The notes under the pieces were generated by a model. That model had not been told where the DNA came from, searched no databases, and saw nothing but the letters and a program-made list of their open reading frames with translations. Below are positions 1,444 to 14,260 of a stretch of 17,075 nucleotides of DNA, piece after piece. Position 1 is the first letter of the stretch. Each line of letters starts with the position of its first letter. Origin of the DNA: Spirochaetaceae bacterium (lineage in GTDB: Bacteria > Spirochaetota > Spirochaetia > Treponematales > Breznakiellaceae); NCBI GenBank assembly GCA_031255115.1, contig JAIRTD010000208.1, positions 1-17,075 on the forward strand, given 5' to 3'. The translations under genes were made by a program, and so were the position numbers.

Positions 1444-2901
1444 ATGAGCTCTTCGATACTTGTGGAGAACGAACAAAAACGCCTTTCCCTCAGCCTGCCC
1501 TGGCTCTGCTGTTTTGCCCTGTTTACCGCCTGGCAGGTCGGCGTATTCAGCTACTCAGGCGCGGCCCTGGCGGTAACAGGCCGTCTGCCCCTGGGCATAG
1601 ACGCCGAAAATCTCACCCCCCTTATCTCGCTGGGATATGTTTTTTCTATTATTTGGATGCTGGTTTTCCCCGCGCGCATTGTCTGGGCGGAGCGCATCAT
1701 GGCGGGGACGGCCCTGCTTTCGACCCTGGCCCTGTACCTGCCCCTTTCCCGGGGAACAACGGCGGCGTTCTTCCTCATCCAGTTGTTTTGCTGCTGCGTG
1801 ATGATAGGTTTTGAAACCGCCATCATTGTGGGGCTTTTTAGCGAGGCAAGCGCCGTCAAGCACCTGCTTGTAGCCTACGGCCTTATTTTTATCCCCGCCG
1901 CGCTGATGCAGGCCGAGTTTTTTGCAGTCCCCTATTGGGTGTTCCAGCACTTTAACGCGGCGGCCCTTGTCCTGCAGCTCCTCTTTTACTGGAAACTGCC
2001 CGCCGGGGTATGGCCTCGTTATGCGCAGGCAAAAAGCCCCCTCTCCTGCCCCAAACGCCTCTTTGCGGGGCTCTTTGCCCTGTGTTTTCTGGGGAATATC
2101 GTGTTTTCCTTTGGCATTTCCGCTGCTGAGGGGGTAGCGCACGGCGTATTTGTCTTTTATGTTTCCTCTTCGGCCTTTGCCATAAGCGGCTATGCCCTAT
2201 TGCGGCGGCTGGGCCTTTCTCCCCTCCGTTACGCCTCCATCTCGGTGATGGTGTCCGTGGCGGGCTTTATACTTGCCATTGTAGCCCTGTACATACCCGC
2301 CCTGGCCCTGCTTTCCTGTGTTCTGCTCGGCCCCGGCACCGCCGTCTGTATTTTAATCCCCTATTACGGGGTGGTGATGACCAAGCGTTATCCTTCACGG
2401 CTTATCGCCCCGCTTATCATCGGGATTTCCTTTGCCGCCTCAGTGCTGCTTCTCGCCTGGTTAATCGAAGCGTTCCGGGCAAATACGACCCTCCTGTATA
2501 CGCTCTACCTTGCCATTGCCGTGGCAATGGCGGTTTTGTACCTGGCGCTGGAACCCTACCTCCTGTACTCCTTCCGGGGACGGCCCCTCATCAGCGACGA
2601 AGAAATCGCCGGTATCGCCCGGACCGAAGCGCCCCTTTCGGACAGGCAGCGAAACCTCATCGCAGGCGCCTTTGACAGGCTCTCCGTTAAAGAACTGGCC
2701 ATTGCCGAACTTCTGATGCAGGGTTTTAAATATGAAGTTATCTGCGCGCGCCTGGGTATCAGCAAGAACACCGCGTACTGGTACCGCAGACAGTTATTCG
2801 ACAAGCTCCAGATAGGCTCGCTGCAGGAACTCTTTGCCCTGGCAGAAAAGCGCGGACAGGGAGAAGCCGCTTATACAGCGCCGGAAAATCGCCGCGAATG
2901 A
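1444..2901 (+). CDS. Multi-pass membrane protein with C-terminal LuxR-type HTH
   Basis: The 485-residue product has about twelve hydrophobic segments between residues 15 and 375, giving an MFS-like integral membrane domain. A linker and a LuxR/NarL-type helix-turn-helix follow at about 413-468: KELAIAELLMQGFKYEVICA, then LGISKNTAYWYRRQLFDKL, which fits the family's recognition-helix pattern and its trailing leucines. A plausible role is a one-component sensor in the cytoplasmic membrane that binds DNA while anchored, as proposed for MFS-LuxR proteins of gut Actinobacteria; the ligand is unknown. The start is supported by GGAGG seven bases before the ATG. It lies upstream of and co-directional with the PocR-AraC genes but 239 bases away, so it may control them or be an independent unit. 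There is no kinase or receiver domain. Confidence 0.8.
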   Translation: MSSSILVENEQKRLSLSLPWLCCFALFTAWQVGVFSYSGAALAVTGRLPLGIDAENLTPLISLGYVFSIIWMLVFPARIVWAERIMAGTALLSTLALYLPLSRGTTAAFFLIQLFCCCVMIGFETAIIVGLFSEASAVKHLLVAYGLIFIPAALMQAEFFAVPYWVFQHFNAAALVLQLLFYWKLPAGVWPRYAQAKSPLSCPKRLFAGLFALCFLGNIVFSFGISAAEGVAHGVFVFYVSSSAFAISGYALLRRLGLSPLRYASISVMVSVAGFILAIVALYIPALALLSCVLLGPGTAVCILIPYYGVVMTKRYPSRLIAPLIIGISFAASVLLLAWLIEAFRANTTLLYTLYLAIAVAMAVLYLALEPYLLYSFRGRPLISDEEIAGIARTEAPLSDRQRNLIAGAFDRLSVKELAIAELLMQGFKYEVICARLGISKNTAYWYRRQLFDKLQIGSLQELFALAEKRGQGEAAYTAPENRRE

Positions 2902-3076: not shown

Positions 3077-3093
3077 TACACCATTAGGGTGTA
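3077..3093 (+). promoter_or_regulatory. Operator-like inverted repeat upstream of the PocR-AraC operon
   Basis: TACACC at 3077-3082 and GGTGTA at 3088-3093 form a perfect 6-base inverted repeat with a 5-base spacer. A TAAAAT -10-like element lies at 3114-3119. If transcription starts near 3126, the repeat is centred near -41, the usual place for an activator overlapping the -35 site. The inverted repeat is seen directly; the promoter placement is inferred. Confidence 0.45.
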
Positions 3094-3140
3094 TTTCGTT
3101 CCAAAGACTTCCATAAAATGCTAAGGTACGGAGGTATGTC

Positions 3141-4514
3141 ATGAGCGCCGTTAGTTTCAAAATAGATTCCAACATTATCGAACGCCGGGAAGGAGAACCA
3201 TTGATTTTTAAGGCCCGGGAAACAGCATCTTACTATCAAAGCGCGGCCGGAGTGGGCAGCGCGGTCCTTGATCATACAGGGCATATCCTGCAAGATTCCA
3301 TTTGCGGAGAAAGATGCCCTTTTCGGGAGGTCTGCCTGCACTGGCACCATGATGAAGCGCCGCTTTCCGCCCAGGCCCGGCGCCGGAAAACAAAGAGCGA
3401 AATCAGCGCCGCCTACCCCTGCGCGTCGATAAATACGGACTACCTCATCAAGGCCAGGGAAAACGGCGGGGCGTACATTTTTACCTGCAGGGCCGGCTTG
3501 GTACACTGGACCAGCCCCCTGCACCGCAACGGCCGTCTCTACGGCGCCCTTATCGCCGGCAAGGTGTTGGGCGGGACGCGCGAAGAGGCCGCCAAAAATA
3601 TATGCGCGGTGAGCGGCGGCGGACTTTCCGTTGCCGAGGCCCTGGACCTTTTAAAGCATATCCCGGAAAAAACCCATGCCGAAGTAAAAGCCCTGGCCCG
3701 GGTACTCCTTGTCTGCGCGGACCAGGTATCAAAGTACGCCGGTATTCCGCACGATACACGGCAGGCCGCGGCCAGGGAAAAGCCTGACGAAGTTCCCAGG
3801 GAGCCTGAAAATCCCGTATACCCCTTTGACAAGGAAAAACTGCTCCTTGCCGCCCTGAGGAGGGGGGATATCGAAACCGGGCGGAAATTCCTCAACGAAC
3901 TGGTTAAAGAATTTTTTTCCGAACCAAAAATCTCAACCCCTGTCCAGCACAGAGCCGTAGAACTGGTAACCCTGCTTTCCAGGGCCGCCATGAGTAATTC
4001 CGAAACGGATAACGTCGATATTCTTGCGGCTAACGACCGCTGCCTTCAATATATCCGGGACGCCAAAGAACCTGAGGACATCGCCAATGTACTGCGTTAC
4101 AGCCTGGAACGCATAGGCGGAAAAATCTTCTCCTTTAGGGGCCTGCGCCACGCTTCGGCGCTGAGACGGGCAGAACGGTTCATTTGGGAAAACTATACCC
4201 GGAAAATCAGCCTGCGGGAAATCGCCAAAGCGTCGGGACTGTCGGCGCCCTATTTTAGTACCATCTTTAAAAAGGAAATGGGCGAAAATCTTTCGAGCTA
4301 CCTCAATTACCTGAGAGTAAACCGCGCCGCCGCCATACTGACAAAAACAAAACAGTCCCTCGACAGCATAGCCTTGTCCTGCGGGTTTGAAGATCAGAGC
4401 TGGTTCTCAAAAATATTCAAACTCCATACGGGAATGAGCCCGGGTAAATTCAGGGAACAGGGAAAGAGGGAAGGACTTTTTGATGACAGACAGAAAATCC
4501 GCTTCGGCGCTTAA
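3141..4514 (+). CDS. PocR sensor domain-AraC family transcriptional regulator (copy 1)
   Basis: The product has 457 residues. Residues about 15-200 resemble the PocR ligand-binding domain, with a cysteine cluster at C55, C59, C65, C94 and C116 and the family's FTCRAGL strand followed by WTSPL. Residues about 230-330 form a helical linker (KEKLLLAALRRGD). Residues about 338-440 are an AraC/XylS double HTH: SLREIAKASGLSAPYFSTIF, then IALSCGFEDQSWFSKIFK and TGMSPGKFREQ. Salmonella PocR controls propanediol and cobalamin genes, so a role in sensing a small metabolite and activating nearby genes is likely; the ligand cannot be read from the sequence. The ATG at 3141 sits six bases after GGAGG. It overlaps the next gene by 32 bases and is probably co-transcribed with it and with the corrinoid-like gene. 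Confidence 0.85.
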   Translation: MSAVSFKIDSNIIERREGEPLIFKARETASYYQSAAGVGSAVLDHTGHILQDSICGERCPFREVCLHWHHDEAPLSAQARRRKTKSEISAAYPCASINTDYLIKARENGGAYIFTCRAGLVHWTSPLHRNGRLYGALIAGKVLGGTREEAAKNICAVSGGGLSVAEALDLLKHIPEKTHAEVKALARVLLVCADQVSKYAGIPHDTRQAAAREKPDEVPREPENPVYPFDKEKLLLAALRRGDIETGRKFLNELVKEFFSEPKISTPVQHRAVELVTLLSRAAMSNSETDNVDILAANDRCLQYIRDAKEPEDIANVLRYSLERIGGKIFSFRGLRHASALRRAERFIWENYTRKISLREIAKASGLSAPYFSTIFKKEMGENLSSYLNYLRVNRAAAILTKTKQSLDSIALSCGFEDQSWFSKIFKLHTGMSPGKFREQGKREGLFDDRQKIRFGA

Positions 4515-5874
4515 ATCAGGCGGAAAAACCAATCCACTTCTGCTTGAGGCGCTAAAAGAAGTAACAGCTTACGGACAGGCCACTGGAGCTCTGGTCTGCG
4601 TTATGGATGAAAATTTTTTGCCCATAGCGGAAATGTTCAGCGAAGTAATAGGCCAGGGAAACACCTGCCGCTACTGCCTTAAATACCTTGCCCGGCAGGG
4701 CGAAACAGAAGAAGGCTCCAAAAAAAATCCCTGCAATGAGCTGCATATCAACGCTATCAAAGAGTCCTATCGTTTTTCCGGCTCTTATATTTATACCTGC
4801 GACCTGGGCTTTATGTTCTGGACCAGCCCGCTCTTTTCCAACAGCCGCTTTGTCGGTTCCCTTTTGTGTTCGGGCTTTCTCGGCGTAGACAAGAGCGAAA
4901 CCGTCGAAACCTTAAAGGAAGTGAGCCACGGAGAACTCAACGAAAAAGAACTGCTTGAGTATCTTTCCCGCTTTCCACGGGGAGAGCCCGAACATATCAA
5001 GGCCCTGGCGGAACTGCTCCTCATCATCGCCGAATCCCTTTCCAAGGAAAGCGAAGATTACCACGAAACCCTTAAAAGGCGGGCCCAGCAGCAGAGTTAT
5101 ATTTCGGAACAACTTGCGATACTAAAAAACCAGTACCCGCCCGGCGAACCTTCTCCCGGCTACCCTCTGGAAAAAGAAAAACTGCTCCTTGCCGCGCTGA
5201 GAAGGGGCGACGAAGAAGCGGGACGAAAAATACTCAACGAGCTGCTCGGCGTATTGTTCTTTACCAACCCGGACCAGTTCAAATCAATACAGTACCGGGC
5301 CATAGAACTCGTGGTACTCCTTTCCCGTGCGGCAATAAGCCCCGGCAACACCGAAGAAAACATTCTTGAGATAAACAACCAGTACCTCATGCGCATACAG
5401 GAAACCCAGAGCATAGAAGAATTAACCGATGTGCTCCATACAATACTGGAACGCATGACCGGACAGATTTTTTCGTTCCAGGGAATACGCCACGCGTCGG
5501 CCCTGCAGAAGGCCGAGTGGTTTATCTGGGAAAACTACACCAGAAAAATCAGCCTGCAGGAAATCGCCGAGGTATCGGGCCTTTCGGCGCCGTACTTCAG
5601 CACGGTATTCAAAATCGAAATGGGGGAGAACCTTTCGAATTATCTTAACCGGCTCAGGGTAGAAGAAGCAAGCCGCCTCCTTACAAGGACAAAAATGCCC
5701 ATCAGCGACATTGCCGAGGCCTGCGGTTTCGGAGACCAGAGCTGGTTCTCCAAAATTTTCAAAAGTTTTACCGGCGTCAGTCCGGGAAAATTCAGGGAAC
5801 AGGGGGGCGGGACCGTTTCAGAAATTTCAGAAGAGAATTTTTCCGAGAACTGCCGCGGTCTATTCAGGAAGTAG
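4483..5874 (+). CDS. PocR sensor domain-AraC family transcriptional regulator (copy 2)
   Basis: The product has 463 residues from the ATG at 4483; the TTG immediately before is an alternative start. AAGGA lies seven bases upstream inside the preceding gene, and the 32-base overlap points to translational coupling. The domain order matches copy 1: a PocR-like domain (about 20-190) with CRYC (C62, C65), C84 and C106, a helical linker from about 230, and an AraC double HTH (about 340-440). From residue 231 to about 440 the two copies align without a gap in identical numbering, and the HTH part is roughly 70% identical by eye. Their sensor domains differ much more, including in the cysteine pattern. 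This suggests a tandem duplication followed by ligand divergence while DNA recognition was kept. The two could share operators or heterodimerise. Confidence 0.85.
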   Translation: MTDRKSASALKSGGKTNPLLLEALKEVTAYGQATGALVCVMDENFLPIAEMFSEVIGQGNTCRYCLKYLARQGETEEGSKKNPCNELHINAIKESYRFSGSYIYTCDLGFMFWTSPLFSNSRFVGSLLCSGFLGVDKSETVETLKEVSHGELNEKELLEYLSRFPRGEPEHIKALAELLLIIAESLSKESEDYHETLKRRAQQQSYISEQLAILKNQYPPGEPSPGYPLEKEKLLLAALRRGDEEAGRKILNELLGVLFFTNPDQFKSIQYRAIELVVLLSRAAISPGNTEENILEINNQYLMRIQETQSIEELTDVLHTILERMTGQIFSFQGIRHASALQKAEWFIWENYTRKISLQEIAEVSGLSAPYFSTVFKIEMGENLSNYLNRLRVEEASRLLTRTKMPISDIAEACGFGDQSWFSKIFKSFTGVSPGKFREQGGGTVSEISEENFSENCRGLFRK

Positions 5875-5897
5875 CGAATACGCACAGGAGGCATGCT

Positions 5898-6539
5898 ATG
5901 AACCTGGCTCAGATTTCAGAACAGCTTGTATCAGGAGACGCGGCGGCGACTTCAGTCCTGGTGAACCGCGCTCTGGAAGAACACTACAGCGCGGAAGCCA
6001 TAGTCAGACAGGGACTCATCGCCGGACTGGCATCGGCGGAAACCCGGTACCGGAACAGGGAAATGCTTATTCCCGAAATACGCATGACGGCCCGGGCCCT
6101 TAACCGGGGCATACGACACCTGCAGGCCGCCATAGACACATTGTATTCCCGAACCCTGGGAGTGGTTATTCTTGGAACAGTAGAAGGCGAATACGAGGAC
6201 ATTCACAAGAACCTGCTTGCCATCATGATGCGCTGCCTGGGTCTCAAAGTTTTTGACCTGGGCACCGGCGTGTCCCATACACTCTTTCTCGAAAAGGCCG
6301 CCCAGGAAAAAGCCGCCGTTATCTGCGTCAACGCCATGCATACCCTTAATCCCATCCCGATGAAAAATCTGGTACAGGGAGCAATAACCAGGGGCCTGCG
6401 AAAAAAAATAAAAATTATACTTTCGGGAACCCCCATCACCGAAGGCTTCTGCCGCAGCATAGGCGCGGACTTCTATGCCCCCGATGTAGAAAGCGCCGCC
6501 GAATACGCCGCTTCCTGCTACCAAAACCGCCGGAACTAA
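5898..6539 (+). CDS. Corrinoid (B12-binding) protein-like, with degenerate cobalamin motif
   Basis: The 213-residue protein has the size and two-part layout of methyltransferase corrinoid proteins (MtmC/MtbC/MttC type). Residues 1-85 form a helical cap with the GLIAGL...NREMLIPEIRMTARAL signature, and residues 88-207 form a Rossmann-like domain. The usual DxHxxG that supplies the lower-ligand histidine reads ExExxH here (E98, E100, H103 in GTVEGEYEDIHKNLL). The SxL position is N145-A-M147 and the later GG is SG (176-177). The fold should be kept, but canonical His-on cobalamin binding should not; H103 lies three residues past the normal site and might substitute. AGGAGG lies six bases before the ATG, 23 bases after the second PocR-AraC gene. 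No methyltransferase is in the window. It may be a sensor or partner for the PocR proteins, which is inference. Confidence 0.8.
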   Translation: MNLAQISEQLVSGDAAATSVLVNRALEEHYSAEAIVRQGLIAGLASAETRYRNREMLIPEIRMTARALNRGIRHLQAAIDTLYSRTLGVVILGTVEGEYEDIHKNLLAIMMRCLGLKVFDLGTGVSHTLFLEKAAQEKAAVICVNAMHTLNPIPMKNLVQGAITRGLRKKIKIILSGTPITEGFCRSIGADFYAPDVESAAEYAASCYQNRRN

Positions 6540-6584: not shown

Positions 6585-6616
6585 AAATTTTACCACGGAC
6601 CAACGCGGGAAAATTT
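6585..6616. terminator. Imperfect hairpin between convergent genes, possible bidirectional terminator
   Basis: AAATTTT (6585-6591) pairs with AAAATTT (6610-6616). An inner CC-x-CG/CG-x-GG stem around GACCAA carries two mismatches. It sits between the corrinoid-like gene (rightward) and the toxin gene (leftward) and overlaps the toxin stop codon. The stem is weak. Confidence 0.35.
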
Positions 6617-6956
6617 ATGCTTCGGTGTCTTCTTTACGAATTTCAAGCAGCTTCGCAAGCTGCCGTGAAATCTGACGCATTTGATCACTGGTCAGGACGC
6701 CTTTTTTTTCTCCCAGTTCTTTTTTGTCAATCGTTATCAATTTTTCTGTCATTACAAAACTGTCTCTCTTTAAGCCGTTTGTTTCATTGGAACTAATATA
6801 AACCCTTGTAGGTATATGGGACGATTCAAACGTAGTAAACAAACAAAGAATTACAGAGTCAAACAATTCCCCCGGGTTCGCTTGAACGATGACAACAGGT
6901 CGCGCCTTGCGGGAATATCCTTCATCACGAAGAGTCCAAATCTCACCACGATTCAT
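6615..6956 (-). CDS. MazF/PemK-type toxin (mRNA endoribonuclease family)
   Basis: I chose the ATG at 6956 (MNRGEIW, 113 residues) because MazF/PemK proteins begin this way; a longer frame to 7007 would add 17 residues lying entirely over the antitoxin. The family core is visible: RGEIW at the N-terminus, RPVVIVQ with the conserved arginine loop, LFTTF with the threonine that helps catalysis, then TNGLKRDSFVMTEKL and a C-terminal helix LAKLLEIRK. The family cleaves single-stranded mRNA at short sequences and is neutralised by its cognate antitoxin. The start lies inside the last codons of the antitoxin gene (14-base overlap), the usual layout of such pairs. No truncation is seen, so it is probably functional. 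Confidence 0.85.
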   Translation of the reverse strand: MNRGEIWTLRDEGYSRKARPVVIVQANPGELFDSVILCLFTTFESSHIPTRVYISSNETNGLKRDSFVMTEKLITIDKKELGEKKGVLTSDQMRQISRQLAKLLEIRKEDTEA

Positions 6957-7200
6957 TGATAACCTTTTTTGAAAGCCGGGTAACGAATTCGGTTGCTTCT
7001 TTTTCATCGCTGAATGCTTCTATGGTATCAGGAAGGGAACTTTCACGATTCGCGCCCGGCTGGGTGCCCGGCTGGGTATCACCCTCCGCATAATCAAAAA
7101 TATTTATCGCTATTCTGGCCTTGCCCGCCGGAACTTGAGGCGGCAAGTCAACATAAATGCGGCGACTGTCAGGTATCTCAATAGTTTGTTCTATGATCAT
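6943..7200 (-). CDS. Putative antitoxin of the MazF-like toxin
   Basis: This 85-residue protein lies directly upstream of and overlaps the toxin. The N-terminal half (MIIEQTIEIPDSRRIYVDLP, then PAGKARIAINIF) is beta-rich; the C-terminal part (EAFSDEKEATEFVTRLSKKV) is an acidic helix, the usual toxin-wrapping element. It is not a clear AbrB-type MazE, and I recognise the N-terminus only as a motif common in bacterial antitoxin-like small proteins. Between the halves lies a TQPGTQPG repeat encoded by two perfect copies of a 12-base unit (7054-7077). The upstream SD is weak. Such antitoxins usually repress their own operon. Confidence 0.7.
   Translation of the reverse strand: MIIEQTIEIPDSRRIYVDLPPQVPAGKARIAINIFDYAEGDTQPGTQPGANRESSLPDTIEAFSDEKEATEFVTRLSKKVINESW
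7054..7077 (+). repeat. Two perfect tandem copies of a 12-base unit
   Basis: GCCCGGCTGGGT is repeated head to tail at 7054-7065 and 7066-7077. It lies in frame inside the antitoxin gene and encodes its TQPG-TQPG linker on the other strand. Slippage here would change linker length without a frameshift. Confidence 0.9.
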
Positions 7201-11909: not shown

Positions 11910-11929
11910 GCCGGGCGTAAAAGCCCGGC
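11910..11929. terminator. Hairpin between convergent genes, likely bidirectional terminator
   Basis: GCCGGGC-GTAAAA-GCCCGGC forms a perfect 7-base GC-rich stem with a 6-base loop. It lies between the outer-membrane protein gene (rightward, ends 11876) and the synthetase gene (leftward), touching the latter's TAG stop. Neither side has a clear T-run. Confidence 0.6.
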
Positions 11930-13698
11930 TATCCTTCCCGTATCGCGACACGGCGTATCTTTCCGCTGATGGTTTTGGGGAGTTCGTCAACGAATTCCAC
12001 GATACGGGGATATTTATAGGGAGCGGTGCTCTTCTTTACATGGTCCTGGAGTTCCTTTTTTAGCTCGTCAGAGGCGGTCCAGCCCCGTGTCAGCACGACA
12101 GTGGCCTTGACCACCGCTCCCCGGTCGGGGTCAGGCGCGCCGGTAATGGCGCATTCGAGTACCGCCGGGTGTTCGAGGAGGGCGCTTTCAACCTCAAAGG
12201 GGCCTATGCGGTACCCTGAACTTTTTATCACGTCATCGGAGCGGCCCACAAACCAGTAGTAGCCGTCCTCGTCCCGCCAGGCCATGTCGCCGGTATAGTA
12301 AAGTTCGTCGCGCCATACTGCCCTGGTAAGATTTTCGTCCCGGTAATAGCCGCCGAAAATACCCAGGGGCCTTCGCGCGCCGGTTCGTATCACGAGCTGG
12401 CCTTCCTCGCCCATGTCGCAGGAGCTTCCGTCCTCGCGTATGAGGTCGACATCATAGCCCGGGGAAGGCAGGCCCATGGAACCGGGCTTTTCCTTCATCC
12501 AGGGAAACGTCGCAAGGGTCAGGGTGAGTTCGGTCTGGCCGTAACCCTCGTGCAGTTTCTTTCCGGTGGCGGCAAGGAAGCGTTCGTAGATTTCGGGGTT
12601 GAGGGGCTCTCCGGCAACGCAGCAGTATGTAAGGGCGGAAAGATCATATTTTGAAAGCGCTTCTTTTATAAAGAAGCGGTAAATGGTCGGCGGGGCGCAA
12701 AAGCTCGTTACCTTGTGGCTGCTGATGACAGAAAGCATAGCCGCCGGATCAAAGTGGTCATAGTCATACACAAAGACCGCCGAGCCGCATATCCACTGCC
12801 CGTAAATTTTTCCCCAGGCGGCCTTGGCCCAGCCGGTGTCGGCTACGGTAAGGTGGAGTCCGCCGTCCTGTACGCACTGCCAGTATTTGGCGGTCAGTAT
12901 ATGCCCCAGAGGATAGGTGTAATCATGGCGCACCATTTTCGGCATGCCGGTAGTTCCTGAGGTAAAATAGAGGAGCATGGTGTCGTCATTGCTGTTTCGT
13001 TCAGAAGGACGGACAAAAGCTGCTTCCGCCTCAGCCATGCGGGCATTAAAATCCGCCCAGGGCACGAGGTCTCCGGATATGCCCGCGTCGGAGTGGCCCG
13101 CTTCTCCGCCGTTCCGCCTTTCAAAAATTTTTCCGGCTTCTACGGCGGGGTCCGAATCACAGGGCGTATGGACAGAACGGACAAAGGCCTTGTATTTTAT
13201 GGAAGAGGTCCATACCGCGTCTGAGTCCCGCTCCAGTTTGGCTTCCGCCTCGTCCACCCTGCACATAAGTTCAGGATCATCCACGCAGATGATACCGGCC
13301 ACGCCGGCCGATACGCAGCGGTACATTATATCCTTGGCGGTAAGGAGGTGGGTCGCCGGTATGCCGACGGCGCCTATCTTGTGAAGGGCAAGCAGGACCG
13401 GCCAGTACTCATGGCGGCGTTTGAGAATCACCATGACGGGGTCGCCTTTTTTTATGCCTCCCCTGACAAGAACATTGGCGGCCTTGTCGGAAAGCTGCTT
13501 CATTTCGGCAAAGGTAAATTCCGCCGTGGCTCCGGCCTCGTCGCACCAGAGAAGGGCCCGGTCCCCTCCCCGTTCCGCCGCGAGTTCATCAAGAACATCG
13601 TAGGCAAAATTAAAATGTTCGGGAACCTTTACCGAAAAATTGGCGAAAAAATCTTCATACGAATCAAAGTGTTCACGGGAAAGAAAACGTTCAAGCAT
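11929..13698 (-). CDS. AMP-forming acyl-CoA synthetase (ACSM/acetyl-CoA synthetase-like)
   Basis: The 589-residue enzyme belongs to the ANL adenylating superfamily, activating a carboxylic acid to acyl-AMP and then acyl-CoA. Motifs in order: YFTSGTTGMPKMV (244-256, ATP phosphate loop), DTGWAKAAWGKIYGQW (287-302, typical of the medium-chain/aromatic acyl branch), GYGQTE (385-390), YYTGDMAWRDEDGYYWFVGR (467-486), SSGYRIGPFEVE (493-504) and PKTISGKIRR with catalytic Lys580. Residues about 183-212 look like an extra low-complexity insert. Chain-length preference cannot be read off; acetate, butyrate or an aromatic acid are all possible. GAGG overlaps the stop of the upstream XRE-cupin gene, which ends seven bases before this ATG, so that regulator probably controls it. 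Confidence 0.9.
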   Translation of the reverse strand: MLERFLSREHFDSYEDFFANFSVKVPEHFNFAYDVLDELAAERGGDRALLWCDEAGATAEFTFAEMKQLSDKAANVLVRGGIKKGDPVMVILKRRHEYWPVLLALHKIGAVGIPATHLLTAKDIMYRCVSAGVAGIICVDDPELMCRVDEAEAKLERDSDAVWTSSIKYKAFVRSVHTPCDSDPAVEAGKIFERRNGGEAGHSDAGISGDLVPWADFNARMAEAEAAFVRPSERNSNDDTMLLYFTSGTTGMPKMVRHDYTYPLGHILTAKYWQCVQDGGLHLTVADTGWAKAAWGKIYGQWICGSAVFVYDYDHFDPAAMLSVISSHKVTSFCAPPTIYRFFIKEALSKYDLSALTYCCVAGEPLNPEIYERFLAATGKKLHEGYGQTELTLTLATFPWMKEKPGSMGLPSPGYDVDLIREDGSSCDMGEEGQLVIRTGARRPLGIFGGYYRDENLTRAVWRDELYYTGDMAWRDEDGYYWFVGRSDDVIKSSGYRIGPFEVESALLEHPAVLECAITGAPDPDRGAVVKATVVLTRGWTASDELKKELQDHVKKSTAPYKYPRIVEFVDELPKTISGKIRRVAIREG

Positions 13699-13705
13699 GA
13701 ATGCC

Positions 13706-14260
13706 TCACAGTACCAGGGCGAGAAAAAGGGCCCGCCTGCCGCCGAGGCACTTCATGCCATGGGGCTCATTGGAATCATAATAGATGGAATCGCCGGGAC
13801 CCAATTCGGTCTCCCGGCCTCCCACCGAAATCAAAAGCCGCCCTTCGAGAACATAATCAAATTCCTGACCAGGATGGGTATTAAGGCTTATGGGTTTATG
13901 TTCGGTGTCGGCCTTGGCTTCCACCAAAAAGGGTTCGCCTTTTTTTCCGTGGAAATTCTGGGCCAGGTTCCAGTAGGTATACATGGGACGCCGGCTTACC
14001 TCCGGCGCGCGGCCGGAACGGGTAACGCAAAAGGAAGTGAGTTTGGCGGTATTGCCCGTTACCAGTTCGGCAAGGTCAACCTTAAAGCGGGCGGCTATTT
14101 CTACCAGGGCGCCTATGGGAAATTCCGCCGCGCCTGATTCCCAGCTCTTGTATTCGAGGGGGTCAAAGCCCAGTTCGGCGGCCAGGGTATCGGCGGAAAT
14201 TTCGGCGATCTCCCGAAGCACCTTTACCCGTTGTATAATATCCTGTACTTCGCTGCTCAT
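13706..14260 (-). CDS. XRE-family HTH regulator with C-terminal cupin domain
   Basis: The 184-residue product has an XRE/Cro-type HTH at about residues 8-68 (VKVLREIAEISADTLAAELG, then YKSWESG and the IGALVEIAARFKVDLAEL tail). A small cupin beta-barrel follows at about 108-184 (NTHPGQEFDYVLEGRLLISV, ELGPGDSIYYDSNEPHGM). Potential metal or ligand residues are H129, E133 and H167. Such proteins are one-component repressors or activators that sense a small molecule in the cupin. Its ATG shares four bases (ATGA) with the rpiA stop, indicating translational coupling, and the acyl-CoA synthetase follows seven bases later. A matched effector, such as the acid or acyl-CoA handled by the synthetase, is a reasonable inference. 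Confidence 0.88.
   Translation of the reverse strand: MSSEVQDIIQRVKVLREIAEISADTLAAELGFDPLEYKSWESGAAEFPIGALVEIAARFKVDLAELVTGNTAKLTSFCVTRSGRAPEVSRRPMYTYWNLAQNFHGKKGEPFLVEAKADTEHKPISLNTHPGQEFDYVLEGRLLISVGGRETELGPGDSIYYDSNEPHGMKCLGGRRALFLALVL

Follow-up and report, generated by a model that had tools for sequence, protein, structure and literature searches.

What becomes of a corrinoid protein when the loop that supplies the lower axial ligand of cobalamin has been rewritten? The question is raised by an open reading frame in a 17,075-nucleotide stretch of DNA from a Spirochaetaceae bacterium (the whole stretch analysed, hereafter the window), where a homologue of methyltransferase corrinoid proteins follows two PocR-type regulators. 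The original prediction, made from the sequence alone, proposed that this protein binds another ligand, binds cobalamin through a shifted histidine, or acts as a non-catalytic sensor or partner.

Altered cobalamin-contact motifs in a corrinoid fold

The ORF (5898-6539, plus strand) encodes a corrinoid-fold protein of 213 amino acids. Residues 4-75 match the Pfam cap family PF02607 and residues 89-193 the Rossmann family PF02310, both above cut-off, and the two-domain fold of methyltransferase corrinoid proteins is present. Size, cap helices and Rossmann fold are shared with MtgC, MtbC and MttC (TIGR02370; 1y80, 3ezx, 7xcn, 4jgi), as is the GTVxG and KN(L) framework. The best NCBIfam matches are methyltransferase corrinoid proteins too, all scoring far below cut-off (129.5, 112, 111.1 and 109.7 bits against 370, 350, 215.3 and 310 bits). 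The features of the gene and its surroundings are as follows.

3081..3098, plus strand: conserved box CCATTAGGGTGTATTTCG upstream of PocR1, a candidate operator (13-base core scan)
3141..4514, plus strand: PocR1, PocR sensory domain and AraC HTH (PF10114, PF12833), its end overlapping the start of PocR2
4480..5874, plus strand: PocR2, PocR sensory domain and AraC HTH (PF10114, PF12833), its stop 23 bp before the corrinoid ORF
5886..5891, plus strand: AGGAGG ribosome-binding site, read directly, 6 bp before the corrinoid ATG
5898..6539, plus strand: ligand-less corrinoid-fold protein, four-helix cap and Rossmann domain (Pfam, 213 aa)
6189..6206, plus strand: codons 98-103, EYEDIH replacing DxHxxG, the lower axial ligand loop (alignment with 1y80 and 3ezx)
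6330..6338, plus strand: codons 145-147, NAM (N145-A-M147) replacing SxL (alignment)
6423..6428, plus strand: codons 176-177, SG (S176-G177) replacing GG (alignment)

In an alignment against Moorella 1y80, GTVKGDLHDIGKNLV pairs gap-free with GTVEGEYEDIHKNLL, and Asp98 is replaced by Glu, His100 by Glu and Gly103 by His. Passages of the CobDH paper (PMC3727330) describe the Asp of DxHxxG as hydrogen-bonding to the ligand His, the Asp and His of that motif and the Ser of the second motif as holding the cofactor, and the Ser of SxL as contacting the DMB base. EYEDIH recurs in the three other species of the genus (L002, L003 and L004; 89-91% identity), so that all four genomes carry it, and chance is excluded as its source because those species share it under purifying selection. 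Together with the Pfam matches and the 1y80 alignment, the sister species confirm the original prediction of a corrinoid-protein homologue with a rewritten motif; a normal DxHxxG, sought in these closest relatives as a sign that the window's copy alone was mutated, was found in none of the three.

We searched 195 genomes of the family at an E-value of 1e-5 and obtained matches, canonical and degenerate, in 160. A first tree of 70 rows, using 66 matches from fetched loci, gathered the degenerate rows into one clade of 43 (39 genomic rows and 4 database proteins) with support of 100/99 and canonical L051 (DLHNIGKNL) as its sister. After removal of the six motif columns, a second tree of 88 rows recovered the degenerate clade, now of 48 rows and nested among methyltransferase corrinoid proteins, at 100/100, joined it to L051 at 100/97 and placed the canonical operon proteins L095 and L097-L100 next at 100/91. 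On this tree the fewest changes were two for the Gly and four for the His, the Gly count being a minimum because only 17 of the 65 new database rows were included and the Arg100/Gly103 rows were left out. The ORF is a member of a well-supported ligand-less clade and not a lone mutant.

All 39 genomic degenerate rows belong to one Spirochaetota family. In a profile search of 392 genomes drawn from the phylum, eleven matches from outside the family ranked above all other outsiders, and these were fetched together with some weaker ones. The corrinoid proteins recovered from them, at L095-L107 and L109-L111, are all canonical; L108 yielded none. So far, the clade has been seen in this one family. 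A profile search of a protein database returned 70 proteins at E 1e-30 among 8,000 scored candidates, and 47 of the 65 rows P0008-P0072 are without the H..G pair, two of them being the same proteins as L071 and L075. Among these 47, Arg100 occurs in 40, P0027 keeps His100 and seven keep Gly103. One scan of viral contigs gave no relative.

His100 and Gly103 are kept together in none of the 43 clade rows, against 26 of 26 canonical rows, which all retain D98, S145, L147, G176 and G177 as well. Singly, His100 survives in two clade rows (L058 and L061) and Gly103 in one (L071). Ser145 is kept in 7 of the 43 rows, Leu147 in none, Gly176 (the first Gly of GG) in 2 and Gly177 in all; K104, N105 and D120-L121-G122 are largely kept. 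The original claim that all three contact motifs have drifted thus stands in that DxHxxG, SxL and GG are each altered, and fails at residue 98, which stays acidic in 43 of 43 clade rows (32 D, 11 E) and in all 47 database rows without the pair. Positions 100 and 103 read Q/E in 15 clade rows, R/E in 7, E/H in 5, and K/E, Q/D and E/L in 2 each, with ten other pairs occurring once each. An acid stands at one of the two positions in 40 of 43 clade rows and in 39 of the 47 database rows.

ExExxH, envisaged earlier as a mark of the clade, is confined to the window's genus and a database fragment, P0005 (EYEDTH); what marks the clade is the absent H..G pair. In column 103, His appears in 5 of 43 rows and one of D, E, G, L, M, N, P, Q, S, T or Y in the others, a variety that makes His103 a genus-level letter, and the shifted-histidine ligand is rejected at the level of the clade. 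Neither 100 nor 103 has a residue of metal-ligand type conserved throughout the clade. Cys144 (33 of 43 rows) and Cys185 (41 of 43) were considered as replacement ligands and rejected as an innovation, both being present already in canonical L051 and in P0045. From these substitutions we infer that base-off/His-on cobalamin binding has been lost in the clade; weak or other binding would be possible.

Selection on the gene and cobalamin use in the genus

By simple pairwise counts, dN/dS of the corrinoid gene within the genus ranges from 0.082 to 0.112 (mean 0.093, 6 pairs), lower than that of PocR2 (0.120, 6 pairs), the OmpA-like neighbour (0.200, 3 pairs) and PocR1 (0.230, 6 pairs). Two other degenerate groups gave 0.133 (28 pairs) and 0.078 (5 of 6 pairs with finite dS), and canonical genes 0.075 (7 of 15 pairs with finite dS). 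Across 40 rows, twelve columns never vary (I35, G39, K156, T181 and Y193 are examples), and no internal stop is listed for the clade's genomic places. Purifying selection on the corrinoid gene is strong, and dN/dS speaks clearly against decay; a pseudogene is rejected on these values.

MetH with a normal GDVHDIGKN is encoded in three of the four genomes of the genus (two above the NCBIfam TIGR02082 cut-off; L135, in a cut frame, reaching 943 of 1,011 bits), which means that the motif change does not reflect a general loss of B12 use. In the window's own genome, a 74%-complete MAG, no methionine synthase was seen. This genome has a cobalamin riboswitch, with none shown in the other three, and it yields one match with the 213-aa protein as query and one further B12-binding protein, of about 500 aa, with the PF02310 profile. 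An Rfam scan of the window detected no RNA family at gathering score.

The PocR-AraC cassette, its canonical counterparts and a promoter box

Both upstream neighbours have PF10114 (51.7 and 60.6 bits, cut-off 23.9) and an AraC HTH (HTH_18, 74.3 and 76.7 bits, cut-off 33.6) above cut-off, and qualify as PocR-AraC regulators. At 37 of 39 degenerate loci the gene immediately upstream, on the same strand, encodes a PocR-AraC protein; the exceptions are L060, with 599 bp to the contig end, and L074, with no such gene in 5.6 kb. Tandem pairs make up 36 of the 37, and L054 shows only a piece at a contig end. The gap between PocR and corrinoid genes, which depends on the choice of start codon, is -17 to 143 bp at 36 of the 37 loci, overlapping in 5. 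The conserved cassette reads PocR-PocR-corrinoid, with the corrinoid gene at its end. Among 15 ORFs of the window scanned with Pfam, five of which matched no family, no methyltransferase or RACo came to light.

The gap at L071 is 1,545 bp and holds a repeat array, with about 1.5 kb of low-complexity repeats (L071:6549-8048) open in frame between PocR2 and the corrinoid start. A 708-aa ORF here had suggested a gene fusion with an extra domain of 500 aa; its first part is low-complexity repeat without a Pfam match, and the fusion was discarded.

Within the regulators, C63, C66, C85 and H89 of PocR2 are kept in 28 of 28 aligned rows, and the same Cys/His columns of PocR1 in 79-93%; in PocR1 of the window, two of these four columns are occupied by Arg62 and Asn98. 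MalT-like LuxR genes (PF00196) lie upstream at 18 of 39 degenerate loci, though not in the window, with PF17874 above cut-off in two of six scanned. At 1444-2901 (plus strand) the window encodes a LuxR-type protein with a long, apparently membrane-embedded N-terminal part, at the site occupied by the MalT-like LuxR genes in the three other species of the genus.

PocR pairs also occur by themselves. Fourteen loci where a corrinoid gene had not been seen, each with 1 kb or more of sequence beyond the PocR pair, were selected, and all 14 lack the gene, which indicates that the pair can work without the carrier and that the carrier is dispensable in some lineages.

Among the canonical relatives, a PocR gene with an AraC HTH stands beside the corrinoid gene at 10 of the 12 loci L095-L106 (L095, L097, L098 and L100-L106; Pfam); at L096 the neighbour is RACo, and the piece of L099 tested gave an HTH only. 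RACo is found at seven of the 12 (L095, L096, L097, L098, L101, L103 and L104), a UroD-type methyltransferase at four (L095, L097, L098 and L102) and CobW at three (L095, L097 and L098), counts for which L099, L100 and L105 were scanned at the PocR neighbour only. Several of the nearest canonical relatives sit in methyltransferase operons that combine RACo, PocR-AraC, the corrinoid protein, a UroD-type methyltransferase and CobW. Not all near relatives have the full operon: L051 runs PocR, canonical carrier, CobW, an alcohol dehydrogenase lies downstream at L101 and an aldose epimerase at L103, and a peptidase precedes PocR at L102. These arrangements may form a series from enzyme operon to reduced operon to a regulator pair with a stripped carrier, with the PocR pair alone as a fourth state.

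In 35 of the 36 degenerate cassettes that were scanned, the 300 bp before PocR1 contain a box within two mismatches of CCATTAGGGTGTA; it is missing in L039 and in canonical L051. Of 3,000 random 330-bp stretches drawn from these loci, 0.43% contain it, a descriptive comparison as the core was derived from the loci themselves. Of the 195 family genomes, 68 contain the pattern CCRTTWGGGTGTRNNNYG, at 74 places in all (3 when the pattern is reversed); most of these genomes have a single copy, and most copies stand before PocR genes. At least 56 of the 74 places are within 3.2 kb upstream of a PocR gene, among the matches listed. The box precedes PocR pairs that have no corrinoid gene as well, and so does not depend on the corrinoid protein. 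We infer that it is a candidate site for self-control by the PocR pair; a sigma-factor promoter element is the alternative.

The other 18 places include a PocR-AraC gene (L142), and several have no clear gene. At L153 and L154 the box stands ahead of 170-aa ORFs that match only part of PocR-AraC proteins and might be relics or a short regulator. Other possible targets preceded by the box are two sensor kinases related to each other (L140 and L148) and, at L141, a response regulator whose sequence includes an HD-GYP-like part; kinase and HD-GYP are labels that come from reading the sequence. A perfect palindrome, TACACC-N5-GGTGTA (3077-3093), was considered as the operator and set aside, as it occurs in one of four genus genomes, only here; the conserved element is the asymmetric box. 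General scans of the window were uninformative (4 promoter-like sites where 3.9 were expected; 14 terminator-like sites where 8.6, sd 3.3, were expected).

Candidate roles for the ligand-less carrier

The clade departs from methyltransferase corrinoid proteins in the loss of the lower axial His, the motif Gly, SxL and the first Gly of GG, in having no methyltransferase or RACo found adjoining, and in falling below the NCBIfam cut-offs. We lean, with modest confidence, towards the reading that the protein is a former methyl carrier of a methyltransferase that no longer binds cobalamin base-off/His-on and persists as a protein partner of the two PocR-AraC regulators encoded just before it. The computed basis is the fold, the clade-wide loss of the H..G pair, purifying selection, the fixed gene order, the promoter box and the canonical sisters next to PocR-AraC genes. 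The non-catalytic sensor or partner proposed at the outset, with a role in signalling, is well supported by the cassette order, the lack of a methyltransferase or RACo among the genes found, and a motif lost under purifying selection.

In such a system the three cassette genes would share one transcript and the PocR domains would sense a small metabolite. The corrinoid-fold protein would contact PocR2, perhaps PocR1, as AerR contacts CrtJ, and tune DNA binding, and the pair would control its own promoter through the box. A fixed gene order is by itself no proof of such contact. The ancestral carrier, loaded with a methyl group or cofactor, may have signalled flux to the regulator, and its descendant would have lost the cofactor while retaining the contact surface. 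What was once an enzyme operon would in this way have shrunk to its regulator and a carrier without ligand, which today would serve the PocR pair as a co-regulator. More tentatively, and with somewhat less conviction, we suggest that a carrier subunit became a ligand-free adaptor in a complex with two PocR-AraC proteins, and that living relatives may display the stages: the enzyme operon; PocR with a canonical carrier and CobW; the PocR pair with a ligand-less carrier; and the PocR pair alone.

Similar cases bear on this proposal. A stand-alone B12 fold next to a transcription factor is a trait of PpaA/AerR proteins and is found here at the 37 of 39 loci with PocR-AraC upstream, where the PocR-AraC protein would be the regulator that it works with; compared with 7te2, the 213-aa protein has a matching fold at 12% identity. 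CarH, as its structure entry titles indicate, resembles AerR in having a His ligand and binding cobalamin. AerR itself keeps its His ligand and binds cobalamin according to passages of PMC9144470, whereas the window protein is without the ligand motif. Closer is HP1 of Rhodospirillum rubrum, which the passages of PMC10734443 describe as a PpaA/AerR-like antirepressor without a B12 motif that still controls photosynthesis genes: a B12-fold-like protein coded beside its transcription factor, its motif lost and its regulation kept. HP1 differs in being alphaproteobacterial with PpsR as partner, while the clade has candidate PocR-AraC partners and a methyltransferase subunit as apparent ancestor. 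A ligand-less B12-fold regulator is thus known in one form, HP1, from which the clade differs in origin and partner. In AppA, the SCHIC domain is described (passages of PMC9144470) as a B12-type fold with a changed ligand that binds haem via a His shifted by two positions; the His of the window protein is shifted by three, to 103, in one genus and 5 of 43 rows, and the SCHIC arrangement is not found. HP1 and SCHIC appear to be the nearest precedents. For the sensory side, the passages of PMC9768040 concern a methyltransferase cluster that encodes a kinase with a PocR domain, for which dichloromethane or other small hydrocarbons have been proposed as the signal. This mec cassette of dichloromethane degraders likewise sets a PocR-domain sensor beside corrinoid methyltransferase genes, but with a histidine kinase and a working enzyme cluster, where the window has AraC-type regulators and no enzymes found. 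In the open-access literature searched, we recognised no paper on the ligand-less clade, its origin or its partner.

It is possible, if unlikely, that corrinoid is still bound, His-off or base-on, and that the protein serves the PocR pair as a sensor of corrinoid level. The fold is intact, Asp or Glu at 98 and Gly177 are present in all 43 rows with K104, N105 and D120-L121-G122 largely kept, a cobalamin riboswitch occurs in the same genome and MetH in three genus genomes, and passages of PMC3727330 name the reductive dehalogenases as cobalamin proteins without DxHxxG. Against this, the nucleotide-tail residues are changed too (Ser145 in 7 of 43 rows, Leu147 in none, the first Gly in 2), and an acid usually occupies the ligand position or lies three residues on. 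We find it more doubtful still that the pocket now holds haem, a metal or a small metabolite in the manner of AppA SCHIC. That precedent (in the passages of PMC9144470 and PMC10734443), Cys185 in 41 and Cys144 in 33 of 43 rows, and His103 in the window's genus would fit another ligand, but His103 is limited to 5 of 43 rows, no residue of metal-ligand type is conserved at 100 or 103, and both cysteines, found already in canonical L051 and in P0045, did not arise as replacement ligands.

A decaying relic on its way to loss would account for the 14 chosen PocR-pair loci without the gene, among them that of G039 (L131), the single genome of the eleven in its genus to give no such match, and for L074 and L060, which are without a matched N-terminus. 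Selection argues otherwise: with no internal stop listed, dN/dS of about 0.08-0.13 in three groups and 12 invariant columns in 40 rows, this explanation is disfavoured and has very little probability in our view. A methyl carrier still working for a methyltransferase encoded elsewhere, as the NCBIfam best matches might suggest, is likewise disfavoured and the least probable of all, given that those matches fall far below cut-off (129.5 against 370 bits at best), the protein has lost the lower ligand, its surroundings revealed no methyltransferase and canonical kin keep the motif in 26 of 26 rows.

If the protein is indeed a co-regulatory partner of the PocR pair, database names given to clade members ('methanogenic corrinoid protein', '5-methyltetrahydrofolate--homocysteine methyltransferase', 'cobalamin-dependent protein') would overstate B12 and C1 metabolism in one spirochete family. 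The clade and its relatives would also trace, step by step, how an enzyme subunit became a regulator; as related regulators stand next to canonical carriers in some and stripped ones in others, comparing the two would allow a test of what the cofactor contributed to regulation. The promoter box would be a direct handle on the targets of the PocR pair.

Directly after the cassette, the window encodes a PemK/MazF-like toxin (PF02452) at 6615-7200 on the minus strand, and a small ORF upstream of it, with no Pfam match, may be its antitoxin. Further along, at 11929-14260 (minus strand), an AMP-forming acyl-CoA ligase lies beside an HTH-cupin regulator.
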